DNA of 50,518 nucleotides. Origin: a virus. The DNA lies in the IMG/VR virus record IMGVR_UViG_3300003690_000013, positions 1-50,518 of that record. The stretch is one strand, 5' to 3'. Of this stretch, positions 2,469 to 50,518 are shown in pieces. The translations under genes and the position numbers were made by a program. Every line of letters begins with the position of its first letter. Position 1 is the first letter of the stretch. The notes below the pieces were generated by a model. The model was not told the DNA's origin. It worked only from the letters and a program-made list of their open reading frames with translations, and made no database searches.

Positions 2469-2484
2469 ACTATTTATTGTAATG
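2469..2484 (+). promoter_or_regulatory. late-promoter-like element 13 nt before the start codon
   Basis: ACTATTTATTGTAATG: the element begins exactly 13 nt before ATG 2482, and no Shine-Dalgarno lies between, so the mRNA may be leaderless. Confidence 0.45.
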
Positions 2485-2757
2485 AAGCTTACTAAATCAC
2501 AATTAAAACAAATTATTAAAGAAGAGTTGAGAAAGAACAAACCAGAATTTCAAGAGGGTTGGAGCGATCTGCCGATAGAAGATCGTATTATTGCTGATAT
2601 TGCAAGAGTTTTAGAGCCTCTTTTTCCCAATTCCTCTAAAATAGATATTTATTATGCCGCGAAAGCCGCTATTGTTGCCGCTAAAGAATATACAAAGAAA
2701 GTAAATGAAGAAGCTGATTCTCACGTACATGAGAATTCTCACGTACATGAGAAATAA
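2482..2757 (+). CDS. leader-bearing small protein (KSQLKQIIKEE leader)
   Basis: A 91-residue protein beginning MKLTKSQLKQIIKEEL, the first of five consecutive genes with this N-terminal leader. The leader carries an IKE site like those cut by T4-type prohead proteases, so I infer capsid packaging or head assembly. The body (residues 20-75) is unrecognised and helical in composition; the tail is a tandem SHVHEN repeat encoded by duplicated near-palindromes. A late-type element precedes it. Function unknown. Confidence 0.65.
   Translation: MKLTKSQLKQIIKEELRKNKPEFQEGWSDLPIEDRIIADIARVLEPLFPNSSKIDIYYAAKAAIVAAKEYTKKVNEEADSHVHENSHVHEK
2719..2753 (+). repeat. tandem 14-bp near-palindrome CTCACGTACATGAG
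   Basis: Two identical copies (2720-2733 and 2738-2751), each an imperfect palindrome, separated by aatt. They encode the HVHE repeats at the end of the gene and might also be an operator. Confidence 0.6.
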
Positions 2758-2774
2758 AGGAGATTTTGAACAAT

Positions 2775-3164
2775 ATGAAACTAACAAAATCAAAACTTAA
2801 ACAGATTGTTAAAGAAGAGGTTGCTCAAGCAATAAAAGAAGGCGAGGTAGTTCAAGGCCCATGGGGAAAAACCGAAGAAGACCCTGGCGTTGTTGGAGGA
2901 GAAGAACTTCCGGCAGAATTTAAATATGAATATGTTTTAGATGAATTAGTTAATGCAGCTAGAGATGGTGTGATGCCACTAGCAATTGAAAAACTAAAAG
3001 ATGCAGGGGCTTTTAGCGAAGAAAGGGGAAGAGGCTTAACTTATAATGATATTGAATTAGAAATTGAAGAGCCCTTATTAGATGCGCTTAGGCCACTAGC
3101 TAAATTAATTCAAGCTAGATTAGATCATGCTCCCGGCCGAGAGACTGAAGAAGACGAGTGGTAA
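2775..3164 (+). CDS. leader-bearing protein (KSKLKQIVKEE leader)
   Basis: A 129-residue acidic protein starting MKLTKSKLKQIVKEE. ATG 2775 is chosen so the leader aligns with its neighbours; an in-frame TTG at 2766 lies closer to the GGAG at 2758-2761 and is an alternative. The body contains a helical region (about 55-105) and ends in a charged tail. Part of the leader-gene cluster at 2.5-4.1 kb. No family recognised. Confidence 0.65.
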   Translation: MKLTKSKLKQIVKEEVAQAIKEGEVVQGPWGKTEEDPGVVGGEELPAEFKYEYVLDELVNAARDGVMPLAIEKLKDAGAFSEERGRGLTYNDIELEIEEPLLDALRPLAKLIQARLDHAPGRETEEDEW

Positions 3165-3174
3165 AGCAATAATC

Positions 3175-3357
3175 ATGAAAATTACAAAACAACAACTTAA
3201 ACAAATAATCAAAGAAGAGCTTCATAAAAATTCATTACAAGAATTTGGAGATCCTCTTGAGCCTATTTATGACGCTTTAAGAGAAATAGGAAGAGGTTTA
3301 GATAGTTTACAAAAAAGAATAGAAGAGCTAGAGAGAAAACGATATGAAACTAACTAA
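3175..3357 (+). CDS. leader-bearing small protein (KQQLKQIIKEE leader)
   Basis: A 60-residue protein starting MKITKQQLKQIIKEEL, followed by a predicted amphipathic helix or coiled coil (residues 28-58). Its last codons overlap the next leader gene by 14 nt. In-frame sequence upstream to 3127 does not match the family start, so ATG 3175 is used. Third member of the cluster; role unknown. Confidence 0.6.
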   Translation: MKITKQQLKQIIKEELHKNSLQEFGDPLEPIYDALREIGRGLDSLQKRIEELERKRYETN

Positions 3358-3730
3358 ATCAAAACTTAGACAGATTATTAAAGAAGAAATTGAGAAAGCT
3401 TTATATGAAGCGTTAGAAACTCCATCAAAAATAGCTTCCGAACTTGGCATTGCGGCCCTACATGGTGTAGGGAGCGCTCCCGTACCTTCTAATCTCGCCA
3501 CGGAACCTACATATGCAGCTACCGGTCGTGGACTAAAGGAAGGGGAATATAATATTAGAGGCCAATATCTTGTATATAGATTGAATAATCAGCTCATGAC
3601 TATGAATTTAAGCGCTGCAAATGAAATGCGACATTGGAGGCTATTAGGGGATGCATTAAAACAGGCCGGTTGGCGCCGCAACGAAAATGCCGCGATCCCC
3701 GTACCGGCAGATTATGAAAAGGCTAGATAA
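3344..3730 (+). CDS. leader-bearing protein (KSKLRQIIKEE leader)
   Basis: A 128-residue protein starting MKLTKSKLRQIIKEEI. After the leader it has an Ala/Pro-rich linker (about 30-60) and a basic C-terminal half with no family I recognise. The ATG lies inside the end of the previous gene (14 nt overlap), implying coupled translation. Confidence 0.65.
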   Translation: MKLTKSKLRQIIKEEIEKALYEALETPSKIASELGIAALHGVGSAPVPSNLATEPTYAATGRGLKEGEYNIRGQYLVYRLNNQLMTMNLSAANEMRHWRLLGDALKQAGWRRNENAAIPVPADYEKAR

Positions 3731-4060
3731 GTGAAGCTCGCCAAATCAAAACTTAAGCAATTCATTAAAGAAGAAATAAAAGTAGCATTAAAAACAAGAA
3801 AAAGGCCATCTGCACCCATATTTGGATGGGGAGATATAGAAGAAGAATATTTCGAAGTTCATGATGAAAGTGGAGATTTAAAAGGTAGAGTAGAATATGA
3901 TATATCAATGAAGAGGTGGGTAGCTTTTGATACTGAAAAAGGCAAAGTGTGTTACCAGCCAGAAAAAGGCAAACCTTGGGGCATGTGGAAATCAAAAAAA
4001 GAAGCAATTCAGGCTATATTGCATGGCGAAAAGTGTGAAGAATTTTTTAAAAAATTCTAG
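3731..4060 (+). CDS. leader-bearing protein (KSKLKQFIKEE leader), GTG start
   Basis: A 109-residue protein starting (GTG) MKLAKSKLKQFIKEEI directly after the stop of the previous gene. The body has alternating beta-like segments with several Trp and Gly residues and two cysteines near the C-terminus. Fifth and last of the tandem leader genes. Function unknown. Confidence 0.65.
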   Translation: MKLAKSKLKQFIKEEIKVALKTRKRPSAPIFGWGDIEEEYFEVHDESGDLKGRVEYDISMKRWVAFDTEKGKVCYQPEKGKPWGMWKSKKEAIQAILHGEKCEEFFKKF

Positions 4061-4414: not shown

Positions 4415-4606
4415 ATGAAAATCGGTGATTTAGTGACGATGGATTATTCAGATTGGCCCGATGGAGATGAATGGGGAGTTGGAGTTGTTATGGAGATTGA
4501 TAAAAGCAAATTCTATAATTCAATTGGAGTTGCGATTCATTGGTCTAAAATAGGTTTAAGCTGGGAAGAAACTGCAACGTTGGAAATAATCAGTGCAAGT
4601 CGGTGA
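4415..4606 (+). CDS. MKVGDLV-family small protein (array 1, unit 1)
   Basis: A 63-residue protein starting MKIGDLVTM and ending LEIISASR. The family has a glycine-aspartate start, short beta strands and a WxxVHW-like segment (AIHWSKIGLSW), suggesting an SH3/KOW-like small barrel (inference). Its final codons form the boundary repeat that contains the start of the next unit. At least 16 relatives occur in the window. Function unknown. Confidence 0.7.
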   Translation: MKIGDLVTMDYSDWPDGDEWGVGVVMEIDKSKFYNSIGVAIHWSKIGLSWEETATLEIISASR

Positions 4607-4612
4607 TTTAGT
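4583..4612 (+). repeat. cassette boundary repeat
   Basis: Copy of the repeat joining MKVGDLV units; variant GAAATAATCAGTG then CAAGTCGGTGATTTAGT. Confidence 0.7.
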
Positions 4613-4769
4613 AACAATGGGTTATTCAGACCGATCCGGTAGCGATGAGTGGGGAGTTGGAATTATTGTGGAGAGCGGTAAAGACATTTTCAATAAATCT
4701 TTAGTGTATTGGTCTAAGCTAGAAGCATCGAGTTGGGAAAGACGCGAGATGTTGGTGAGCATTAAGTGA
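4593..4769 (+). CDS. MKVGDLV-family small protein (array 1, unit 2), GTG start
   Basis: A 58-residue protein starting (GTG) MQVGDLVTMGYSD. It is clearly a paralogue of the preceding unit (shared DEWGVG and WSK segments), so it arose by local duplication. It overlaps the previous gene by 14 nt and the next by 4 nt. The C-terminal LVSIK lacks the usual SASR ending. Confidence 0.65.
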   Translation: MQVGDLVTMGYSDRSGSDEWGVGIIVESGKDIFNKSLVYWSKLEASSWERREMLVSIK

Positions 4770-4936
4770 AAGTCGGTGATTTAGTAACAATTAAACCTGC
4801 AAGAGGATCTTTTTGTATAATAACAAGTATAAATGTATTCGGCTTGCCTAGTTGTGTGGAAGTCTGGTATCCAGAGCCGAATATGATTCTCCCAATGGAA
4901 AAGAGATGGATTGAGGTCGTAAGTAAAAGTGACTAG
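4766..4936 (+). CDS. MKVGDLV-family small protein (array 1, unit 3), GTG start
   Basis: A 56-residue protein starting (GTG) MKVGDLVTIKPARG and ending IEVVSKSD. The middle is unlike units 1 and 2 although the first codons are nearly identical at DNA level, the typical pattern of this family. Its end overlaps the hydroxylase start by 8 nt. Confidence 0.65.
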   Translation: MKVGDLVTIKPARGSFCIITSINVFGLPSCVEVWYPEPNMILPMEKRWIEVVSKSD

Positions 4937-5387
4937 TTTAATAAGTCAAATTATTATAGGCTATTTGTATGCAACTTGGCTAGAGTGGGCAACACACAAG
5001 TATATCCTTCATGGGTTGGGAAAAAATAAGAACAGTTGGTTTAATTTTCACTGGCACTTACACCACAAAGCCTGCAGAAAAAACAAGAACTTTGATGAGA
5101 ACTATAATACTTTTCTTTCATCATCAGTTATAAGAGAAATAACAGGCCTTTGTTTTCTTTCGGTAATACACATGCCTATTTATTTTGTAATGCCTTATTT
5201 ATATTACACTTTGATCTTTTGCTCCATAAGGTATTTTTATGTACATCAAAAAAGCCATTTAAATGTTGAGTGGGGTAAGATATACTTTCCTTGGCACTAC
5301 GATCACCACATGGGAAAAAACCAAGATGCCAATTGGGGCGTCACCACAGCATTGTGGGATATTATTTTAGGAACGAGAGAGAAATGA
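4929..5387 (+). CDS. fatty acid hydroxylase superfamily membrane protein
   Basis: A 152-residue integral membrane protein of the di-iron fatty acid hydroxylase/sterol desaturase superfamily. Histidine clusters are in family order: H23 and H28 (ATHKYILHG), H41, H43, H45-H46 (HWHLHH), H106 and H110 (HQKSH), H123, H126-H127 (HYDHH). Two hydrophobic segments (about 3-18 and 70-100) alternate with them. Such enzymes oxidise lipid or carotenoid chains at membranes; the substrate here is unknown. GTG start, 8 nt overlap with unit 3. It is shorter than most bacterial members but has the core motifs. Confidence 0.8.
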   Translation: MTSLISQIIIGYLYATWLEWATHKYILHGLGKNKNSWFNFHWHLHHKACRKNKNFDENYNTFLSSSVIREITGLCFLSVIHMPIYFVMPYLYYTLIFCSIRYFYVHQKSHLNVEWGKIYFPWHYDHHMGKNQDANWGVTTALWDIILGTREK

Positions 5388-5785
5388 ATAAACTGTTAAT
5401 TATACTTTTATTATTTAGCATGAGCTGTGCCACGGCAAAAGTATATCCAAATTTAACACCAGAACATGTAAGAGATAACTGTGAACCTGTTAATTTTTGG
5501 CATGTACGTGTTCTAGGCGCAATAACTTTTGTTGAAGAATTTAAAAATTGCTCTGGTGTCAAAGCATTAACAATTATTGCTATCCTTAAAGACGATTTCA
5601 CTAAAGAAATTCAACATCAAACTTTAAAGCTAATCAAGCTTCATTATACACAATATCTAATAAACGAAGTTGACAATCAAAAGTTATGGCAAGTGAATAA
5701 AATTAAAGAACAATCTTACATTAGCTTCGCTAAGGAGAAATGGCTGTTTTTCTTTTATGAGATCGCCTCTAGCCAAAACGACTAA
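5384..5785 (+). CDS. putative exported or lipoprotein
   Basis: A 133-residue protein whose ATG overlaps the hydroxylase stop (ATGA). The N-terminus (MNKLLIILLLFSMSC) is a signal peptide with a possible lipobox cysteine at 15. The mature region has two further Cys (about 30 and 48) and no domain I recognise. Tight coupling to the hydroxylase suggests an envelope-related role, but this is inference. Confidence 0.6.
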   Translation: MNKLLIILLLFSMSCATAKVYPNLTPEHVRDNCEPVNFWHVRVLGAITFVEEFKNCSGVKALTIIAILKDDFTKEIQHQTLKLIKLHYTQYLINEVDNQKLWQVNKIKEQSYISFAKEKWLFFFYEIASSQND

Positions 5786-5788
5786 CAA

Positions 5789-5959
5789 ATGAAAATCGGT
5801 GATTTAGTACAGCTTGGCCCAAACTACAAGAATAGAAACCGTTGGGCAATTATAGCTAAAAGCGAAGACTGGAGTAGTCATTGCAGTATTATATTTACGG
5901 ATACAGGTGAAAAAGTTGAAGCAATCAAATCAGGACTAATTGTTTATAGCAACTCATAG
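5789..5959 (+). CDS. MKVGDLV-family small protein
   Basis: A 56-residue protein starting MKIGDLVQLGPNYK. It shares the family start at DNA level (aaaatcggtgatttagta) but ends VYSNS, so it is a unit without a downstream boundary repeat. It stands 3 nt after the lipoprotein-like gene. Confidence 0.6.
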   Translation: MKIGDLVQLGPNYKNRNRWAIIAKSEDWSSHCSIIFTDTGEKVEAIKSGLIVYSNS

Positions 5960-20149: not shown

Positions 20150-20366
20150 CATAAACCACCCTAAACACTACAATATCAACTGGAAGGACGAGCAGGCTAT
20201 TGAAACTTATAACTATATAAACTCTTGGAGAATGGGATATGCCGAAGGAAATATAATAAAATATGTCGCTAGGCACAAATATAAAGGTAAAGCCCTTCAA
20301 GATTTAAGAAAAGCCCGTTGGTATCTTAACAAATTGATTGAGGAATTTGAAAATGAAAGTAGGTGA
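20139..20366 (+). CDS. DUF3310 (SaV-like) protein
   Basis: A 75-residue DUF3310 protein: NHPKHYN at the start, then EAIETYN-like segment, NIIKYVARHKYKG and DLRKARWYLNKLI. This family is widespread in phages, frequently near nucleotide metabolism; its biochemistry is not established. Overlaps both neighbours. Confidence 0.85.
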   Translation: MSDNINHPKHYNINWKDEQAIETYNYINSWRMGYAEGNIIKYVARHKYKGKALQDLRKARWYLNKLIEEFENESR

Positions 20367-20592
20367 TTTAGTCAAGTTGTATATTGATAAAGAATTTACA
20401 CAACTTGATATGTTCTCATCTTCTAGTGCTAACGAGCTGGGAATCATAATTGAATCTCACAACTATAATAAAAAAAGCTCAGGAAACGAATATAATTATT
20501 TTGTGGTACACTGGCTAGAGACAGACATGCGCTCTACACACAGTGCTTCGGGCTTAGCCCTCATTGCGAAGGAGAAAAATGAAAATTGGTGA
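20353..20592 (+). CDS. MKVGDLV-family small protein
   Basis: A 79-residue protein starting MKVGDLVKLYIDKE; one of the longer family members, with an FVVHWLE segment typical of the family core. ATG 20353 lies in the end of DUF3310 (14 nt overlap). It ends in the start region of another family member, so two units sit in tandem before IMPDH. Confidence 0.6.
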   Translation: MKVGDLVKLYIDKEFTQLDMFSSSSANELGIIIESHNYNKKSSGNEYNYFVVHWLETDMRSTHSASGLALIAKEKNENW

Positions 20593-20767
20593 TCTTATAA
20601 AACACAAAAGAACAAATTTAACGGCAATAATAATAAATATTTTTCACAGCAAGCGCACAAAAACACCACTTGCTACGGTAATAATGTCGGATGATCAGCA
20701 TCGACCATGCACAGCAAATTTAAGAATATTAGAAAAAAATTGGGAGATTTTAAATGAGGCTAATTGA
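20579..20767 (+). CDS. MKVGDLV-family small protein
   Basis: A 62-residue protein starting MKIGDLIKHKRTN with a GGAG ribosome binding site inside the previous gene. The end overlaps the IMPDH start by 14 nt. The same overlap length recurs throughout the family. Confidence 0.6.
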   Translation: MKIGDLIKHKRTNLTAIIINIFHSKRTKTPLATVIMSDDQHRPCTANLRILEKNWEILNEAN

Positions 20768-22391: not shown

Positions 22392-23042
22392 ATGAAGGAC
22401 AATAAAGTATTAAACGAGGCAACAATTCGGCGCTTCATGAAGCTAGCAGGCACTCAAGCACTTACAGAAAATTTTGTAGAAGAAAACGAGGATCAAGAAG
22501 AGGTTCAAGAAGAAGCTCAAGAAGAGGTTCAAGAAGAAGGTTTCTACAAAGACGATGTAGAAACACCCGAGCCCGAGCTAGAAGATCTTCCCGGCGAGCC
22601 TGAAGGCGTAGATCTTGAAGAGCCCGAAGAGGAAATGCCTGCCGAGCTAGAAGATGCTGGACCAATGGCTAAAGTACGAGATATTGTGGCTGATGCTGTT
22701 ATGGATGCACTTTCGGGTGCTGTAGAAACTGGCGAATTGGACATTAGCGAAGAAGAGCCAGCTGAAGTTGCACCAGAAGAATTTCCTGGCGAAGAAGCAC
22801 CTCCTGAAGGTCTTGAGAGCCCTGAAGAGCCTCTTCAAGAAGAAGCCGAAGAAGCTGAAGAGTCACTTGAAGAAGCCGAAGAAGATGAAGAGTCACTTAA
22901 AGAGGCTGATATAGATTATATTAACGAAAGTGCAATTGTTAATGAAGTGCTAAAAAGAGTTACATCACGTCTAACTAAAGATTCCAAAAAAGAAAAACTA
23001 GTTGAAAAGCTAGCTAATAAAATTGCAAAACGATTGAAATAA
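22392..23042 (+). CDS. acidic prohead-core/scaffold-like protein
   Basis: A 216-residue protein dominated by Glu, with QEEVQEE-type repeats (35-50) and PEE repeats, and a basic C-terminal helix (REVL..LVEKLANKIAKRLK-like). The N-terminus (KVLNEATIRRFMKLAGTQ) resembles that of structural core proteins I recall from T4-like cyanophages and contains LNE and LTE sites of the prohead protease type. I infer a scaffold or internal head protein. A late-type element precedes it and ClpP lies four genes on. Confidence 0.6.
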   Translation: MKDNKVLNEATIRRFMKLAGTQALTENFVEENEDQEEVQEEAQEEVQEEGFYKDDVETPEPELEDLPGEPEGVDLEEPEEEMPAELEDAGPMAKVRDIVADAVMDALSGAVETGELDISEEEPAEVAPEEFPGEEAPPEGLESPEEPLQEEAEEAEESLEEAEEDEESLKEADIDYINESAIVNEVLKRVTSRLTKDSKKEKLVEKLANKIAKRLK

Positions 23043-32304: not shown

Positions 32305-32502
32305 ATGAAGGTTGGCAATCTCATACAAACAAAGGATATAGTTGATATTGAATCTAGATCCGACACCATTGCCAGTGGCGACATTGGTTTTATAAAGTTT
32401 GTAAGAGATAGTAATAAAGATCTTCCACAATATGAAGTATATTTTCCTTGGATTCAAGAGTCTTTTTGGCTATTTCAAAATGAATTTGAGATTTTATCAT
32501 GA
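32305..32502 (+). CDS. MKVGDLV-family small protein
   Basis: A 65-residue protein starting MKVGNLIQTKDIVD and ending FEILS. Its stop overlaps the next family member by 4 nt, forming a two-unit array. Confidence 0.6.
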   Translation: MKVGNLIQTKDIVDIESRSDTIASGDIGFIKFVRDSNKDLPQYEVYFPWIQESFWLFQNEFEILS

Positions 32503-32657
32503 TGCAGATAGGTAATTTGGTCGAACACAAAGGAGCAAAAGGAAGGCTTGGAGTGATCATAGAAGTTCAAGGAAAACAATGGATTAAAGTAAAATGGCCG
32601 GAAAAAATAATATTATCTGAGCACATTGATGATTTGATAGTGAAAGAAAAGCGGTAA
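32499..32657 (+). CDS. MKVGDLV-family small protein
   Basis: A 52-residue protein starting MMQIGNLVEHKGAKGRLG; the middle (GVIIEVQGKQWIKVKW) is a clear KOW/SH3-like strand-turn-strand pattern. Last unit of this pair. Confidence 0.6.
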   Translation: MMQIGNLVEHKGAKGRLGVIIEVQGKQWIKVKWPEKIILSEHIDDLIVKEKR

Positions 32658-33921: not shown

Positions 33922-34107
33922 ATGAAACCTGGATATTTAGTAAAAGTGACACGAGCCTCCATTGGTATACCAATTGGAACGATTGGTCTAATTATTGAAA
34001 CCCACATGCCTTTCGGATACTGCGATGTGCAGCTATGCGGTTTGGAGCAAACGCGAACAGTTCGCCGTATGCCAAGAGATTTGGAGGTAATCAGTGCAAG
34101 TCGGTAA
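33922..34107 (+). CDS. MKVGDLV-family small protein (array 2, unit 1)
   Basis: A 61-residue protein starting MKPGYLVKVTRAS and ending LEVISASR. The middle (GTIGLIIETHMPFGYCDV) is a typical variable core. Apparently translated from a leaderless mRNA. The final codons contain the boundary repeat. Confidence 0.7.
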   Translation: MKPGYLVKVTRASIGIPIGTIGLIIETHMPFGYCDVQLCGLEQTRTVRRMPRDLEVISASR

Positions 34108-34113
34108 TTTAGT
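34084..34113 (+). repeat. cassette boundary repeat
   Basis: GAGGTAATCAGTG then CAAGTCGGTAATTTAGT; GGAGG at 34083-34087 serves the GTG at 34094. Confidence 0.75.
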
Positions 34114-34279
34114 AAAAGTTTATAGGCGCAATGGACTTACTATTAATATAATAACTAAAATAGAGAAACGCCGCAATGATTATGGCACTCACGACAAGTG
34201 GATAAATATTGGCACATGTGGTTCAGAGTTTTTCCACGAAAAGGATGTAGAGATAATAAATGCTACCGAAATCATCTAA
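34094..34279 (+). CDS. MKVGDLV-family small protein (array 2, unit 2), GTG start
   Basis: A 61-residue protein starting (GTG) MQVGNLVKVYRRNG, core NIITKIEKRR, ending INATEII. Its first codons overlap the previous unit by 14 nt; the ribosome binding site is encoded by the LEV codons of that unit. It overlaps the next unit by 20 nt. Confidence 0.65.
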   Translation: MQVGNLVKVYRRNGLTINIITKIEKRRNDYGTHDKWINIGTCGSEFFHEKDVEIINATEII

Positions 34280-38487: not shown

Positions 38488-38517
38488 GAGGTAATCAGTG
38501 AAAGTCGGTGACTTAGT
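38488..38517 (+). repeat. orphan cassette boundary repeat
   Basis: Full repeat (GAGGTAATCAGTGAAAGTC..) with no upstream unit in frame; a 5' cassette edge left on its own, here acting as the ribosome binding site and start of the next gene. Confidence 0.75.
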
Positions 38518-38695
38518 TATTTATAAGCCTCATGGCAGTACTTATGAGGGCACAGGCTTGATACACGCGATAGAAGCCGTTTCTAGCGATGTTTATCGCT
38601 ATAAGGTGAGTTGGCCAGCAAAACCCGCAAACATCGGAAAAACGATGACTTGGGAAAGCCCACGAGATATAGAGGTAATCAGTGAAAGTCGGTGA
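38498..38695 (+). CDS. MKVGDLV-family small protein (array 3, unit 1), GTG start
   Basis: A 65-residue protein starting (GTG) MKVGDLVIYKPHGS, core YRYKVSWPAKP, ending IEVISESR. GGAGG 6 nt upstream comes from the orphan repeat. Confidence 0.68.
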   Translation: MKVGDLVIYKPHGSTYEGTGLIHAIEAVSSDVYRYKVSWPAKPANIGKTMTWESPRDIEVISESR

Positions 38696-38701
38696 TTTGA
38701 T
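38672..38701 (+). repeat. cassette boundary repeat
   Basis: GAGGTAATCAGTG then AAAGTCGGTGATTTGAT. Confidence 0.75.
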
Positions 38702-38879
38702 TAAATTTAATGACATATCTCCAAATAAAGAGGACGATATTGGAATTATAATTGATATTAAAGGCCGCGACGTTACACTTTGTTGGGCAAAATCAGGTAA
38801 AGCATGTTCAACAATTGATAGATTGCTTTACGAAAAACAACATTTTGAATTATTAGAAGAAGGAATTAAGAAATGCTAA
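38682..38879 (+). CDS. MKVGDLV-family small protein (array 3, unit 2), GTG start
   Basis: A 65-residue protein starting (GTG) MKVGDLIKFNDISP, core GIIIDIKGRDVTLCWAK. Ends without a boundary repeat (EEGIKKC) and overlaps the next gene by 7 nt. Confidence 0.65.
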   Translation: MKVGDLIKFNDISPNKEDDIGIIIDIKGRDVTLCWAKSGKACSTIDRLLYEKQHFELLEEGIKKC

Positions 38880-39742: not shown

Positions 39743-40017
39743 TGTCACAAAAACAACAACAAATTTATCTTGCACAGTGGGACCATAAACATGGTCAAGA
39801 CATTTCAGCGCACACCACACACGATGGCGCATTCAAGCAATGTGTTAAGTGGGCACGAGAAACGCTTGAAGAATGGACCTGTTTTTGTGAGGACGAACGA
39901 ACTGTACTACATTATGAAGAAATGAACGATAAAGAGTTGGTTGATGAATGGGGCGAGCTTACAGGATACAGCGAATTTTTCAAGGTTGACTCGCTTTTGT
40001 TAAACGAGGACAATTAA
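39742..40017 (+). CDS. unknown small protein
   Basis: A 91-residue protein; GTG 39742 overlaps the previous stop by 1 nt. Acidic, with WARETLEEWTCFCED in the middle. Its stop overlaps the first unit of the next array by 1 nt. Confidence 0.55.
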   Translation: MSQKQQQIYLAQWDHKHGQDISAHTTHDGAFKQCVKWARETLEEWTCFCEDERTVLHYEEMNDKELVDEWGELTGYSEFFKVDSLLLNEDN

Positions 40018-40190
40018 TGCAAGTCGGTGATTTAGTAAAACACAAAAATCTTGTTGCTTTGGGAATAATATTGAAAACCCCAAAGCAAACTAACAATGGT
40101 GATTGTTTAGTTCAATTCATACAAACGATAAACATTATCACATTGAATTGTTCGCCTCGTAAACTGGAGTTAATCAGTGCAAGTCGGTGA
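40017..40190 (+). CDS. MKVGDLV-family small protein (array 4, unit 1)
   Basis: A 57-residue protein starting MQVGDLVKHKNLVALG, ending LELISASR. First of four tandem units. Confidence 0.7.
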   Translation: MQVGDLVKHKNLVALGIILKTPKQTNNGDCLVQFIQTINIITLNCSPRKLELISASR

Positions 40191-40196
40191 TTTAGT
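40167..40196 (+). repeat. cassette boundary repeat
   Basis: GAGTTAATCAGTG then CAAGTCGGTGATTTAGT; one base from consensus. Confidence 0.8.
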
Positions 40197-40365
40197 TAAA
40201 TTTCACACTGCAAGTTGTCCAGGTTTTAGACTGATTACGATACTTGGTTTTATTCATGATAAAACCAATGCAACGGTACTATGGGTGCAAGGTTTTGAAA
40301 TTGGTGCCGCAGATCAAAGATTATACAATCCAGAATATTTAGAGGTAATCAGTGCAAGTCGGTGA
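40177..40365 (+). CDS. MKVGDLV-family small protein (array 4, unit 2), GTG start
   Basis: A 62-residue protein starting (GTG) MQVGDLVKFHTASCPG, core NATVLWVQG, ending LEVISASR. Overlaps both neighbours by 14 nt. Confidence 0.7.
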   Translation: MQVGDLVKFHTASCPGFRLITILGFIHDKTNATVLWVQGFEIGAADQRLYNPEYLEVISASR

Positions 40366-40371
40366 TTTAGT
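40342..40371 (+). repeat. cassette boundary repeat
   Basis: Consensus copy: GAGGTAATCAGTG then CAAGTCGGTGATTTAGT. Confidence 0.8.
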
Positions 40372-40504
40372 AAAGTTTAGAGACAATGACGCAACAGGCT
40401 TGATTATTGCCGTAAAAGGTAATGTATTTCGCGTTCAGTGGTTCGATGGCAGCATAAACGGTCGATTCGGTGACGAACTGGAGGTAATCAGTGCAAGTCG
40501 GTGA
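40352..40504 (+). CDS. MKVGDLV-family small protein (array 4, unit 3), GTG start
   Basis: A 50-residue protein, the shortest unit: (GTG) MQVGDLVKFRDNDATG, core LIIAVKGNVFRVQWFDG, ending LEVISASR. It shows the minimal fold: about five short strands between fixed ends. Confidence 0.7.
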   Translation: MQVGDLVKFRDNDATGLIIAVKGNVFRVQWFDGSINGRFGDELEVISASR

Positions 40505-40510
40505 TTTAGT
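40481..40510 (+). repeat. cassette boundary repeat
   Basis: Identical over 30 nt to the copy at 40342. Confidence 0.8.
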
Positions 40511-40667
40511 GACAAAGCAATTGCACCTTCATGAGAAACTTGTGGGGATTGTAGTTGCTATGGAAGCATGCGAAACTTACTTTAAAGTTTGTTGGTGCAA
40601 CTATGGAACGTTTTGGACGCCGGTTAAAGAGTTGGAGTTAATCGGTGAAGTCGATAAGAACAGATAA
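40491..40667 (+). CDS. MKVGDLV-family small protein (array 4, unit 4), GTG start
   Basis: A 58-residue protein starting (GTG) MQVGDLVTKQLHLHEK, core FKVCWCNYGTFW, ending LELIGEVDKNR. The 3' repeat is degenerate, so the reading frame runs on and no further unit follows. Confidence 0.68.
   Translation: MQVGDLVTKQLHLHEKLVGIVVAMEACETYFKVCWCNYGTFWTPVKELELIGEVDKNR
40635..40658 (+). repeat. degenerate terminal boundary repeat
   Basis: GAGTTAATCGGTGAAGTCG: recognisable but with a lost base and substitutions; marks the array end. Confidence 0.6.
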
Positions 40668-43044: not shown

Positions 43045-43278
43045 ATGAAGCTAACCAAATCCAAACTTAAGCAGATCATCAGAGAAGAATTAAAAATTAA
43101 TTTAAATGAAGATGAGCCAAACATACCAGATCTCGTTCAACAGGTAAACAGTTTAACCAATGCATTAGCCGAACTAAAACCAACCTTAAAACCAGCCGTG
43201 AAGGAATTCATGGACAAACTCAACAAAGAAACAAAAGACGAAGTTGTAGCTAGCTTGTTAGAGCCAACAAAAAAATAA
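43045..43278 (+). CDS. leader-bearing protein (KSKLKQIIREE leader)
   Basis: A 77-residue protein starting MKLTKSKLKQIIREEL, followed by KINLNEDE, so it holds IRE and LNE sites. The body is an amphipathic helix (about 30-65). It is the only member of this leader family outside the 2.5-4.1 kb cluster. Function unknown. Confidence 0.65.
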   Translation: MKLTKSKLKQIIREELKINLNEDEPNIPDLVQQVNSLTNALAELKPTLKPAVKEFMDKLNKETKDEVVASLLEPTKK

Positions 43279-44938: not shown

Positions 44939-44954
44939 ACTAATTAATAGTGTG
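44939..44954 (+). promoter_or_regulatory. late-promoter-like element 13 nt before the start codon
   Basis: ACTAATTAATAGTGTG; GTG 44952 lies 13 nt from the first base. Confidence 0.5.
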
Positions 44955-47567
44955 AAATTATTATTCGAAAACTGGCGCGAATTTAAAACATTAACACTTG
45001 AAAAACAAATTCTTCAAGAAGTATCAGAAGAATACGCAGAAAGAATACAAGATTGGTTTGCCGCTAGCGGCGGTCAAATGGCACTACCTTTTAGTGACAT
45101 GTTTAATGGCGAAATGAGAGAAGTAATTTCTTTAGGCCCAATTGTATCCCCGCGCTCGACCATTGGTAAAATGATAGATTTCTTCAAAAGGAATGGTTAT
45201 GAAGTCGACTTTGCCAATGGTCTTATTACAAAAGAAGTTGCAACTCAGAAAGGCACACAAACAAGAAAACAAAAAATTGGCAAAGCTCTGCAGCAAGTCT
45301 TAAGGCTCAAGAAAACCGCATACAACGCTGGAGACAACTTGGATGCAGTTCACAAAAAAATTCAAGATGCATCCGCTGAATACGTTCCAAGAGCAGAAAT
45401 CGAACTCTCCCCAGAAGTTAAAAAAGCCACAGAAGACTGGAAAAAAGCAAACTCAAATCTTGCCAAAACATTTCCACGTGAAGTACTACAATCAGACTTA
45501 GAAGAATTTATAGACTTTTGGAATAAGAAATCAACATTTTATCGTGAAAACCCAGAAAAAGCTCAAACAGAATATTCAATTATAATTTCTCGGCACCCCA
45601 TTGATGTATTAAGAATGTCAGACTTTGCTATGATTCATTCATGCCACTCTGAAGGTAGTGACTATTTTTACTGTGCGTTATCTGAAGCAAGAGGCCATGG
45701 CCCAGTTGCTTATGTTGTTGAAACAAACGATCTGCAAGAAATTAACCTAGCTGATGATGAAATATTTGAAGACGACGACAGAGGCATTGAAGGGATAGAA
45801 CCAATAGCTAGACTTCGTTTAAGAAGGTTTAATAATGAGAATAAAGATTTTGATTTAGCAATTCCAGAAGCAAAAGTATATGGCGTTAGCATACCAGACT
45901 TTCAGAAAAAATTAAAAGCTTGGGCGCTAGACAAACAAAAAGACAAGTTTCAATATGCCATTAAAAACAATCAAATAGATGAAGACTTTATGAATGAGTT
46001 TCTTCGGATGGGCGGGTCTTATCAAAGCGACGTAGATCGATCTATGTCTTATCAAATGTTTAATGATTTCTTTTCAGATTATAATCCTAGCTTTCGTGGT
46101 AATGTTAAGTGGGTTGGAGATGAACATGAAGAAGAGGAAGATCCTTATCTCCATAATCAACAGCTAGCAGAAGAATTTGAAGAAGCAGGTGCAAACGTTG
46201 AAGACTGGGTCAGTAATAATCTTGAACATAGTTATTTTTCTTATGAAGTTATGCACGAAGATGAAGAAGAGGAACCACAGCTCTTTTTCAACGGAGGAAT
46301 GTCTTTTGATTTTGAACTAGACGGCCCAGAAGCTGATAATTTTCCTGATTGGAGAGGGCAAACAGAACTAGCTAATAAAATAAATAGTGAGCTTGACACA
46401 TACAATGGCGCATCAGATTACGATGTCAGTGAGTACCAAAACACACTAACTTATAGAATAGAGTGGGAAACCGGCTGGGACTATGATATGACCCCTGATG
46501 GTGCAGATAATTTTTCTGAAAGCATGAAGCAAGATGATGAGGATTACGAGAAACACAGAGCAGCAATAAAAAGTGTATTAGTTGAAGAAGGATATGTTAT
46601 TCCAACTCAAGTCGATATTCTTCGTAAAAGATTTGAAGAAGGCGAAATTGAATTTGAACATTTTGACATTGAAAAGAGCGATGAAGGTGGTTGGGAAATT
46701 GTTACAACAGAATTGGGCTTAGTTGGGCCAATTAAAAACGATCCATGGGACGTATTTAAAGCAGTATACGGCAAAGGTAAATGGTCTCCGATAGGTAAAC
46801 GTAATTTTAGCTCTAGTGCCTTTTCTAGACAAGTAATCGATTCAATGTCTAGCGAGATGATTCGAGCCATTAAAGATTCAGCAAAACAGCTTGAATTAGC
46901 TTTTGGCGACGAACAACTAGAGCTTCCAATAAATGTTAAAACAACTCCACAAAAAGTTGAAGACTATATTTTGGACGGGTTTGTATTGATCCTGCGCAAA
47001 ATAGAAGCACTCGATGCCTGGACTAAAGTAAAAGAATATGGAAAAGGAACTCCAAGAAAAGTAGGAATAGAAAAATTAATATTTGCCCTTGACGACGACA
47101 TGGATCCGGCCACAATAAATTCAGCAGTTAATTTAATTAAACACATTGACAAGAACATAGGAGAGTTTAAAGACAGAGTGACAGACACTCTTCAAATGAA
47201 TGATGCTGAATATGAAAAAGTGACAGTAAAAGGAAAAAAAGAACTAGAGTATCTTACTAAGATTGCTAATGAAATAGTTAATTATAAAGCAAATATTAAT
47301 TATTATCTCCAAAGCTCACGTGGCGGAAAATTAGAGCACCGTATGGCTACAATTTTTTTAAATCGTTTAGGAAGTACCGAAATAAAGCAAGCAATTCTTG
47401 ATCAAGAAATGGATCCAAGCGATGAACAATGGAAAGATTTTATAAAACTTATTAATACTATTAAGAAAATACATAAAAAGCTTGACAAAACAAAAAAAAT
47501 AAGCGAAAATATAAGAAGGACTGCAATTAAAATAAGAACAAAAAAGAGTGGAAAAGTCACGCGATAA
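44952..47567 (+). CDS. giant leader-bearing protein, GTG start
   Basis: An 871-residue protein starting (GTG) MKLLFENWREFK, a member of the LLENW leader family, with LQE near residue 22. The upstream in-frame region to 44880 belongs to the previous gene in another frame. Around residue 230 lies ISRHPIDVLRMSDFAMIHSC then HSEGSDYFYC, a cysteine/histidine motif resembling the C...DYF motif of the protein at the window end. Residues 370-560 are extremely acidic. Probably a virion or injected protein; activity unknown. Confidence 0.6.
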   Translation: MKLLFENWREFKTLTLEKQILQEVSEEYAERIQDWFAASGGQMALPFSDMFNGEMREVISLGPIVSPRSTIGKMIDFFKRNGYEVDFANGLITKEVATQKGTQTRKQKIGKALQQVLRLKKTAYNAGDNLDAVHKKIQDASAEYVPRAEIELSPEVKKATEDWKKANSNLAKTFPREVLQSDLEEFIDFWNKKSTFYRENPEKAQTEYSIIISRHPIDVLRMSDFAMIHSCHSEGSDYFYCALSEARGHGPVAYVVETNDLQEINLADDEIFEDDDRGIEGIEPIARLRLRRFNNENKDFDLAIPEAKVYGVSIPDFQKKLKAWALDKQKDKFQYAIKNNQIDEDFMNEFLRMGGSYQSDVDRSMSYQMFNDFFSDYNPSFRGNVKWVGDEHEEEEDPYLHNQQLAEEFEEAGANVEDWVSNNLEHSYFSYEVMHEDEEEEPQLFFNGGMSFDFELDGPEADNFPDWRGQTELANKINSELDTYNGASDYDVSEYQNTLTYRIEWETGWDYDMTPDGADNFSESMKQDDEDYEKHRAAIKSVLVEEGYVIPTQVDILRKRFEEGEIEFEHFDIEKSDEGGWEIVTTELGLVGPIKNDPWDVFKAVYGKGKWSPIGKRNFSSSAFSRQVIDSMSSEMIRAIKDSAKQLELAFGDEQLELPINVKTTPQKVEDYILDGFVLILRKIEALDAWTKVKEYGKGTPRKVGIEKLIFALDDDMDPATINSAVNLIKHIDKNIGEFKDRVTDTLQMNDAEYEKVTVKGKKELEYLTKIANEIVNYKANINYYLQSSRGGKLEHRMATIFLNRLGSTEIKQAILDQEMDPSDEQWKDFIKLINTIKKIHKKLDKTKKISENIRRTAIKIRTKKSGKVTR

Positions 47568-47608: not shown

Positions 47609-47830
47609 AAATCATTATTTAAAATATTTAATAACCATCCAAATAAAAATGGATTCACTTACTTTCAACACAACAAGTTTGCTATCTTAACAAGTCTTCA
47701 TTTGGGAACTAGTGCCATATTCTTTGCCATACACGCTGTGTTTCCGTTTATTCCAATGCCTGCCTTGTTTAATTGTAAAGCAATTATAGCCACATTAGAT
47801 GAGTGCGCTAAATGGGAGAAAAGTGATTAA
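47606..47830 (+). CDS. DUF6356-like membrane protein
   Basis: A 74-residue protein: NHPNKNGFTYFQHNKFA, then a hydrophobic segment (SAIFFAIHAVFPFIPM) and CKAIIATLDE. The HP...TY..H and IHAxFPF pattern resembles DUF6356, small membrane proteins of unknown function in alphaproteobacteria and others. The stop overlaps the next gene by 1 nt. Confidence 0.6.
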   Translation: MKSLFKIFNNHPNKNGFTYFQHNKFAILTSLHLGTSAIFFAIHAVFPFIPMPALFNCKAIIATLDECAKWEKSD

Positions 47831-48309
47831 TGAAGTCGCTACTCGAAAATTGGCAACAGTATTTAAAAAAGAATAAAAAAGTCGTCACATTTGATTTCGA
47901 TGATACGTTAGCCCTTTCACATTGGGACGAAGAACTTGACAATTGGGCTCATGATGGTCCGCACGACATGATGGTCCAAAAGATACAAGAATACATTAGC
48001 AACCCAAATACTAAAGTATACATTGTAACATCTAGATATCAAGAATACGAAAAAGCGGCACTAAAGAATTCAAGACAAAAGGCTGTACAAGAATTTTTAG
48101 ATTTACACAACATAAACGTAGACGGAGTATACTTTACAAATGGCCAATCAAAAATTGAAACATTGCTTAAGTTAAACTCCTCAATACATTATGACGACGA
48201 TCCAGAAGACATAAGAGACGCAAGAGCAAATGGGATTGAAACAGCTGTATCAGATCCATATGGTGATTATGAGAAACTTAAAACTAATATGAAAAATGAA
48301 ACAAAGTGA
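47830..48309 (+). CDS. leader-bearing HAD-family phosphatase
   Basis: A 159-residue protein. Leader MKSLLENWQQYLKKN, then a HAD domain with D22-F-D24-D25-T26 (motif I), TSR (motif II, about 74) and YDDDPED (motif IV, about 121). It would hydrolyse a phosphate, for example a 3'-phosphate on nucleic acid as in polynucleotide kinase phosphatase domains, but the substrate is unknown. The leader suggests packaging into the head. Confidence 0.78.
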   Translation: MKSLLENWQQYLKKNKKVVTFDFDDTLALSHWDEELDNWAHDGPHDMMVQKIQEYISNPNTKVYIVTSRYQEYEKAALKNSRQKAVQEFLDLHNINVDGVYFTNGQSKIETLLKLNSSIHYDDDPEDIRDARANGIETAVSDPYGDYEKLKTNMKNETK

Positions 48310-48680: not shown

Positions 48681-48884
48681 GATTTTAAAATTAATGTTAA
48701 AACTTTAATATTAATTGTTGGTATAGCCTGCACTTTGGGCGGTTTTTATTATACAACCAACTTCAGACTTAATATTTTAGAAAGCGAGGATAAGGCCTTG
48801 CAAGTTCAAATAAAGGACACGAGAAGACTTTTAACGAGATTAGAAAATAAACTAAATCGTCTTAAAAAAAAGGTGGATAAGTAA
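48678..48884 (+). CDS. membrane-anchored coiled-coil protein
   Basis: A 68-residue protein: one N-terminal transmembrane helix (about 8-26), then a coiled coil (30-66). The layout fits an i-spanin or membrane-tethered structural peptide. Overlaps the nucleotidyltransferase gene by 1 nt. Confidence 0.55.
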   Translation: MDFKINVKTLILIVGIACTLGGFYYTTNFRLNILESEDKALQVQIKDTRRLLTRLENKLNRLKKKVDK

Positions 48885-49663
48885 TGAGCGACTTGGTAAA
48901 AAACTGGAAGAAGTATTTAAATGAATTAATTGATCCCAATGAAGTAGATGTATCTAGCTTTGAGGCAAAAAATTATTTAAATCCTAATTTATGGGAAAAT
49001 GAAAACTTACTTAAACCTGAAATAGCTGATCGACTTTATGCAATTGCACAAGATTTTTTTAAATCTTTAAAGCTTGATTGGGTTGACATTAAAGATATTA
49101 CTCTGACTGGATCTTTGGCAAACTATACATGGTCAAAACATTCTGACGTTGATCTTCATATTATTTTAAATTTTAGAGAAATAGATGAAAACTTAGATTT
49201 AGTTAGAGAATATTTAAGAGATGCAGGGAGCTTATGGAACAAACAACACAATATAACAATTAAAAGCTGGCCAGCAGAAATATATGTACAAGATTATAAC
49301 GAACCACATCACTCAACTGGAGTCTATTCTATCATAAATGATATATGGATTCAGAAACCAATGAAATCATTTCAAAAAATTGACTACGCGAACATACAAA
49401 AAAAAGCTGCAATGCTGATGCAAGACATTGATGAAGTTTTTAACATGTATGCAAATAAAGAATATAAAAACACACTAGATGCAGCAGAAAAATTAAGAGA
49501 TAAAATAAGAAGATTTAGGCAAGCAGGATTGGAAACTGGTGGAGCATATTCTGTTGAAAATTTAACATTTAAAGTATTAAGGCGAAACGAATATTTAAAA
49601 AAGCTTTCTAGTTTAAGAATATTATCATATGACCATATGATGTCACTTAATGGAAATCACTAA
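48884..49663 (+). CDS. leader-bearing nucleotidyltransferase
   Basis: A 259-residue protein. Leader SDLVKNWKKYLNEL contains LNE. Residues 72-95 have the polymerase-beta-like nucleotidyltransferase signature G76-S77 ... D88, D90 (TGSLANYTW, SDVDLHI). It could add a nucleotide to RNA, protein or a small molecule. The C-terminal half is helical, as in tRNA- or antitoxin-type NTases. Probably delivered with the virion (inference). Confidence 0.72.
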   Translation: MSDLVKNWKKYLNELIDPNEVDVSSFEAKNYLNPNLWENENLLKPEIADRLYAIAQDFFKSLKLDWVDIKDITLTGSLANYTWSKHSDVDLHIILNFREIDENLDLVREYLRDAGSLWNKQHNITIKSWPAEIYVQDYNEPHHSTGVYSIINDIWIQKPMKSFQKIDYANIQKKAAMLMQDIDEVFNMYANKEYKNTLDAAEKLRDKIRRFRQAGLETGGAYSVENLTFKVLRRNEYLKKLSSLRILSYDHMMSLNGNH

Positions 49664-49890: not shown

Positions 49891-50518
49891 GTGAAACTCC
49901 TACTTGAAAATTGGCGACAGTATCTAAATGAAGTTTCTTTTTCAGATGCAAAAGATATCCTCGATTCTAAACGCACTATAAAGATCATTAAAGCGTATCG
50001 CTATGATAAAGAACAAGAACATCCTGATTATCCTGATGCTGGTATGACGACTCAACATCGTAACTTCAAAAACTATCTTCTCGATCATATCCCCGATGAT
50101 TTAACTGATAACCAAAAGGGTACTTCTGTTCTCTGGTTACTAAAACTATCAAGAGAAGACCCAAAAGTTGCTGCTGAATTTATTAATGGTCGTATTACGA
50201 TTGGTCCTCGACGCAGCCTTGAAACATTTTTTCATCATCAGCGATTTATGCCTAGACAAGATCTAATGCAAATCAAAACTATGGAAGATCTTGTTGCTAT
50301 GACTTATGCAGTAAAAGAGGAAATTCAAAAAGCACAAGAGAAAAAGAACTATCTTGATGCAGAAGGAGGTACGGAAATTTTCAGAGATGATAATAAGTGG
50401 ACTATCGCAGCACTTCACAACAAAGGTGCTGCTTGCGAACTCGGCAAAAACACCGATTGGTGTACTGCTGCTCCCGGTTTAGATTATTTTGAAGATTATT
50501 ATAAAGAAGATGATCCTT
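49891..50518 (+). CDS. leader-bearing protein, truncated by the window end
   Basis: GTG 49891 starts MKLLLENWRQYLNEV, the clearest example of the LLENW leader with an LNE site. The 209 visible residues include GACELGKNTDWCTAAPGLDY near the end, a WCTA...DYF motif similar to the C...DYF region of the 871-residue protein at 44952. The gene has no stop before 50518. Function unknown; the motif resembles part of PcfJ-like sequences from memory. Confidence 0.6.
   Translation, partial: MKLLLENWRQYLNEVSFSDAKDILDSKRTIKIIKAYRYDKEQEHPDYPDAGMTTQHRNFKNYLLDHIPDDLTDNQKGTSVLWLLKLSREDPKVAAEFINGRITIGPRRSLETFFHHQRFMPRQDLMQIKTMEDLVAMTYAVKEEIQKAQEKKNYLDAEGGTEIFRDDNKWTIAALHNKGAACELGKNTDWCTAAPGLDYFEDYYKEDDP

Follow-up and report, generated by a model that had tools for sequence, protein, structure and literature searches.

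Short N-terminal leaders that recur on otherwise unrelated phage proteins are probably T4-style capsid-targeting sequences (CTSs), which the gp21/S77 prohead protease would remove and whose protein bodies would be carried in the head and then injected. The leaders were found in a 50,518-nucleotide stretch of viral DNA (IMG/VR record IMGVR_UViG_3300003690_000013, positions 1 to 50,518; called the window at its full length). Leader 1 (M-K-[LI]-T-K-x-x-L-K-Q-I-I-K-E-E) forms the N terminus of six window proteins, and leader 2 (M-K-x-L-[LF]-E-N-W-R-x-Y-L-x-E), which a preliminary description of the sequence had missed, begins four further window genes. The N-terminal position of the leaders, their restriction to phages, their modularity and swapping, the Glu specificity of the candidate site, its match to the capsid protein site and the presence of the protease in related phages were observed directly; we infer that the tagged proteins bind the core, are cleaved, packaged and injected, and take part in host take-over or anti-defense.

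Unrelated Proteins Share N-terminal Leaders

The genes starting at 2482, 2775, 3175, 3344, 3731 and 43045 had been described as having a common leader and bodies that diverge completely. Open reading frame (ORF) starts and pattern matches confirmed this, and the six bodies are mutually unrelated. The leader string given in the preliminary description held overall, with small departures at 3175 (KITKQQ), 2775 (V at position 12), 3731 (GTG start, leader reading KLAKSKLKQFIKEE) and 43045 (IREE at the end of the leader). The mechanically called ORFs at 2766 and 3127 are longer, and the internal ATGs at 2775 and 3175 are better starts. On the plus strand, a 45-base degenerate leader-1 pattern matched at five of the six genes (2482, 2775, 3175, 3344 and 43045); the minus strand of the window gave zero matches. 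Among codon pairs of the window leaders, 97 were identical, 74 differed synonymously and 54 non-synonymously. Because codon differences are more often synonymous than non-synonymous, it is the amino acid sequence of leader 1 that is kept.

We then searched viral DNA for the leader patterns in IMG/VR (2.9 million viral contigs; L and G numbers are our handles for loci and contigs). Both leaders are widespread among viral contigs. The 45-base leader-1 pattern was found at no fewer than 120 loci, and a codon-shuffled, slightly stricter version had zero matches in the 2.9 million contigs; the leader-1 pattern also had no match in 50 control viral records. Across 84,980 prokaryote genomes (257 Gb), it occurred in only five contigs from four metagenome-assembled genomes (MAGs), and these contigs are probably misbinned phages, because two of the four MAGs also carry the phage T4-type protease S77. 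Two MAG contigs with about seven leader-1 genes each, NHDW01000006.1 (305,838 bases; Methylococcaceae TMED69) and PBIO01000025.1 (101,404 bases; Halobacteriovorax SP2999), are probably misbinned large phages.

A relaxed leader-1 pattern gave 123 matches in 23 S77-bearing contigs, often as arrays and all but one on the strand of the protease gene; the reversed pattern gave 0. When the leader-2 motif was searched without a start codon, it lay exactly 3 residues past an ATG in 145 of 158 matches. Up to ∼16 tagged genes were found per genome (G028). In this contig 15 leader-1 genes are arrayed over 10 kb at the contig end (G028:C1:28-10280; L174, L107), and the array gene at 1319-2263 is HD/RelA-SpoT-type hydrolase-like as judged by eye. 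Bare leaders gave no match to named phages by tblastn, the queries probably being too short or masked; it took translation of a whole genome, that of Flavobacterium phage immuto, to find the leaders in a named phage. A literature search found no paper describing these leader strings.

The preliminary description had proposed looking for the leader on other proteins of related phages. This search yielded 383 leader-1 proteins in 294 unrelated body clusters, and 183 leader-2 proteins fell into 107 unrelated body clusters. As with T4-type CTSs, a short N-terminal peptide is thus common to proteins with unrelated mature parts. Nearly all leader-1 bodies had no known family in Pfam or PHROGs. The leader-2 bodies include NUDIX, S-adenosylmethionine lyase, protein kinase, ART-PolyVal, GNAT and HD domains, nucleotidyltransferases of the Pol-beta and poly(A)-polymerase types, and zeta-toxin-like, transglutaminase and guanylate kinase proteins. 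The ADP-ribosyltransferase, Pol-beta nucleotidyltransferase, GNAT and S-adenosylmethionine lyase cargo matches classes typical of injected proteins (PMC5512222).

A given body can bear either of the two leaders, a different one, or no leader at all. Leader-2 protein L097:7074 and leader-1 protein L107:1068 can be aligned in register starting at residue 1 (55%). For the body KVLGYIKP.., leader 2 is seen in L267, whereas L430 has a leader-1-like start and L176 lacks a leader. Leader-2 protein L240:2090 reads FLDE/GGNVF (a slash marks a candidate cleavage bond) where a leaderless immuto protein starts MGGNVF, so that the junction falls at the Glu. The body of L078:1675 (leader 1) matches that of L291:623, which bears a third leader, MARRKNTKKIDPRYFLNE; this one too ends in [LM]xE and was seen on 20 genes from 16 loci. 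A general capsid-targeting tag is the best-supported view of the leader, given its phage restriction, N-terminal position, exchange with other leader types on one body and Glu-specific site resembling that of the phages' own capsid protein; the idea of a single leader is revised, since there are at least three interchangeable ones.

A Glu-specific Candidate Cleavage Site Marks the End of the Leaders

In loci fetched by leader 2, we detected leader 1 with nothing beyond its first 9 residues. Residue 14 was Glu in 98% and residue 12 was Ile, Val or Leu in ∼100%, and conservation faded past residue 16. The preliminary description had placed the cut after IKE/IRE. The most protease-like site of leader 1 ends at residue ∼22. 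A second [LIMV]xE is position-locked at residues 21/22 (17% and 33% versus 1.8% per body position), and a motif ending at residues 19–26 was present in 187 of 294 independent leader-1 bodies versus 41 in the control window at residues 39–46. Residue 22 was Glu in 75% of cases if residue 20 was Leu, Ile, Met or Val and in 12% otherwise (Fisher p = 3.6e-29). Asp showed no enrichment at residue 22 of leader 1, and Gly and Ala were enriched at P1' of the site. In 79 held-out bodies the site and its Glu coupling recurred (50 versus 7; p = 8e-6). In leader 2, [LIMV]xE occupies residues 12–14 in about 70–89%.

In the region where T4 gp23 is cut at LTE/A, these phages' own major capsid proteins have ENQA..LL[RK]E/[AS] as a conserved sequence, and in the T4 IPIII tag Asp at P1 blocks processing (PMC9026906). 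As judged by sequence, the leaders have a Glu-specific, gp21-type [LI]xE end without Asp, and the [LIMV]xE pattern would be expected from a gp21-like protease with Glu specificity. Two other readings of the sites were set aside. Cleavage of IKE/E at residues 12–14 as the sole leader-1 cut was demoted in favor of the site at ∼22, whose P1' profile is better. We also rejected a simple amphipathic-helix or acidity origin of the second site, since Asp shows no enrichment and since, at several offsets, the presence of Glu is coupled to that of a hydrophobic residue two positions earlier.

In the proposed mechanism, each leader would form a short amphipathic helix at the N terminus, through which the tagged protein docks into the prohead core. 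Next, the gp21-type (S77) protease would cut C-terminal to [LIMV]-x-E, at residues ∼20–22 of leader 1, and possibly also past IKE at 12–14, and at residues 12–14 of leader 2. The freed body would remain with the DNA inside the head and enter the next host by injection. As recognition would involve the tag alone, new genes could become cargo by gaining a leader, and leaders would be interchangeable. An AlphaFold2 model of the 2775 protein (84% identical to L097:1109), of low overall confidence, has a helix at residues 5–21, a disordered linker at 23–45 and a helical body. In that of the 48884 protein, residues 1–15 form a detached low-confidence helix; its best fold matches are adenylyltransferases, and these are weak.

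Related Phages Encode the Protease and Head Proteins

S77 and T4-type head genes were present in 23 of 31 leader-1 and 13 of 32 leader-2 contigs, including nearly all long ones; among contigs of at least 130 kb, S77 was found in 15 of 16 with leader 1 and in all 8 with leader 2. The window genes have relatives throughout a 186-kb contig (G024) that encodes portal, S77 protease, gp22-like and gp23-like proteins together with eight leader-1 and eight leader-2 genes. Leader genes directly adjoin the protease gene in several contigs, and some also adjoin portal and scaffold genes.

Co-occurrence with S77 was dropped as evidence, as 7 of 8 random contigs of at least 130 kb also have S77. Therefore, its presence says only that the needed protease is available.

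Observations Against Capsid Targeting and Alternative Explanations

Apart from the S77 content of the random contigs, several observations weigh against capsid targeting. Thirty-six percent of leader-1 bodies lack an [LIMV]xE in the 19–26 range, among them 3731 and, strictly, 2482, in which none is found at 20–23 and the nearest motif is FQE/G at 23–25. In leader-2 gene 47830 of the window LxE is lost (LKK), and the homologue L199:5206 keeps MKLLFENWRKYLNE. The IKE/E reading puts Glu at P1', unlike the capsid protein site. Some cargo (guanylate kinase, tRNA nucleotidyltransferase) resembles ordinary metabolism. The window fragment itself contains neither the protease nor head genes, and a literature search found no virion proteome for immuto or any leader-bearing phage. 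Finally, many leader arrays are distant from the head genes, and the sequences upstream of leader genes show no enrichment of the T4-type late promoter TATAAATA.

The last two observations would also fit leaders that serve as docking helices for another phage compartment or machine (replication center, membrane or RNA polymerase), with [LIMV]xE incidental or the target of another protease, and several cargo families comprise nucleotide or RNA enzymes, which could work in the course of infection and not in the virion. We consider this unlikely, given that a Glu-specific, Asp-excluding [LIMV]xE followed by Gly or Ala matches both the phages' own capsid site and the rules of the T4 tag (PMC9026906) and that several head clusters have leader genes flanking the protease gene.

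That the tagged proteins form the structural core (scaffold) of the prohead, the leader binding the core and not being a removable tag for injected cargo, seems quite improbable. The leader genes that directly adjoin protease, portal and scaffold genes would suit a scaffold, as would the helical body predicted behind a disordered linker for the 2775 protein; many leader-2 bodies, however, are globular enzymes (NUDIX, ART, GNAT, HD, kinases), and the bodies differ completely between phages and exist leaderless, which is unexpected of a conserved scaffold. A shared gene start that recombination has spread, or that is retained because it makes translation initiation efficient, with no protein function, would account for lysine/AAA-rich leaders in tandem arrays, where the start could be a crossover point, but is very hard to reconcile with synonymous variation beneath kept amino acids, with E14 and hydrophobic spacing held across hundreds of bodies, and with three unrelated peptide leaders serving overlapping sets of bodies.

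Table 1. Leader genes of the window, with candidate cuts, and positions of the small-gene family
Feature	Position	Strand	Leader and candidate cut	Body or remark
Leader-1 gene	2482..2757	+	MKLTKSQLKQIIKEE	76-aa body
Leader-1 gene	2775..3164	+	AIKE/G, residues 20-22	
Leader-1 gene	3175..3357	+	MKITKQQLKQIIKEELHKNSLQE/F, residues 21-23	
Leader-1 gene	3344..3730	+	MKLTKSKLRQIIKEEIEKALYE/A, residues 20-22	
Leader-1 gene, GTG start	3731..4060	+	VKLAKSKLKQFIKEEIKVALKT	second [LIMV]xE absent
Leader-1 gene	43045..43278	+	MKLTKSKLKQIIREELKINLNE/D, residues 20-22	
Leader-2 gene, likely GTG start	44952..47567	+	VKLLFENWREFKTLTLEKQILQE/V	∼870-aa body, family unknown
Leader-2 gene	47830..48309	+	MKSLLENWQQYLKKN	HAD/5'-nucleotidase-like body
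Leader-2 gene	48884..49663	+	MSDLVKNWKKYLNE/L	Pol-beta-type nucleotidyltransferase body
Leader-2 gene, GTG	49891..50518	+	VKLLLENWRQYLNE/VSFSD...	continues past window end; homologue L097:5830
Small-gene family	4415-5959, 20353-20767, 32305-32657, 33922-34279, 38498-38879, 40017-40667			

Other Gene Families and a Cultured Relative

Sixteen small window genes (50–79 aa) have a common start, M-[KQ]-[VIP]-G-[DNY]-L-[VI]; several end in VISASR, and several form head-to-tail overlaps in which the start of a gene is coded by the end of the preceding one. They look like a dispersed and tandem family of SH3/KOW-like proteins. At 22392-23042 the window encodes a strongly acidic protein, rich in Glu, whose start LNE[AG]TIRRFMKLA..xALTEN is conserved; it may be a core or scaffold protein and occurs once per locus in related phages (L171:17149, L299:9633, L028:7891, L259:2798 and L216:1168). 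Near the prohead protease gene of 17 loci (L146:12543, L148:10493, L150:10586 and others) lies a gene, one per locus, with the leader-1-like start M-K-K-[SN]-[ED]-L-K-x-[VL]-[IL]-K-P-[LI]-V-K-E-C-I-x-E, possibly a gp67/gp68-like core protein and a relative of the leaders. The small basic gene next after it is annotated as S21-like in Microcystis phage Mel-JY01.

Flavobacterium phage immuto (vB_FspM_immuto), a cultured relative whose terminase is 47% identical, has three leader-1-like starts, MKKSELVKLIKEEL, MKKSQLREIIRKEL and MKKSQLRQIIKEAL; its leader-1-like genes lie at about 102,294, 102,880 and 113,188 of the record, and its leaders of the FDLKKFLVEN type at about 1,803, 103,806, 117,631 and 118,632. 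It also has a common start of its own, FDLKKFLVENKLTxNSKLL, on four genes (L302, NC_055915.1 100,001-150,000), two of them immediately upstream of the terminase gene. Immuto is an organism in which the capsid-targeting claim can be tested.

Implications and Comparison with Known Systems

On balance, we lean toward a general cargo-loading code in marine T4-superfamily phages, in which a few swappable head-targeting peptides ending in a protease-cut [LIMV]xE would recruit any gene. If so, each virion would carry a rotating payload of many injected, mostly uncharacterized proteins that could be read from metagenomes, and a 14–22-residue tag would mark, by its sequence alone, the unknown marine phage genes whose proteins enter the host with the DNA. 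This would provide a catalogue of candidate early-acting anti-defense and take-over proteins, make the T4 internal-protein idea testable at large scale and supply new head-loading peptides usable for other phages.

The closest known parallel is the CTS of T4 IPI, IPII and IPIII (and the propeptides of Alt and gp24), likewise a short N-terminal peptide with an MK start, an [LI]xE end, divergent bodies and a gp21-type protease. Glu is required at P1 of the T4 CTS (PMC9026906), and the T-even internal proteins are described as diverse defense proteins that have only the CTS in common (PMC3012670). The IPII/IPIII tag is MKTYQEFIAE/A, and over so short a stretch the leaders agree with it in no more than the initial MK and a final [FYI]-[LI]-x-E. 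Unlike the T4 CTS, they are other sequences of 14–22 residues and at least three interchangeable types, and they tag up to ∼16 genes per genome and hundreds of body families, many of them enzymes, whose packaging is predicted. Head and ejection proteins of phiKZ and SPN3US also have N-terminal propeptides that a gp21-related protease cuts C-terminal to Glu in a short motif (PMC5694885); those propeptides are mostly about 80–275 residues long and protein-specific, whereas the leaders are short and common to unrelated proteins. Among polyvalent and virion-packaged effectors (ART-PolyVal, T4 Alt, P1 DarB and MuF fusions), ART, Pol-beta nucleotidyltransferase and GNAT domains are predicted to be injected with the DNA (PMC5512222). 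The same domain classes recur in the cargo described here, but polyvalent proteins join many domains in one chain, whereas here single domains each bear a small common tag. Taken together, the leaders are most likely a larger-scale variant of the known T4-type capsid-targeting principle, with strict membership, that is packaging and cleavage, predicted from their sequences.
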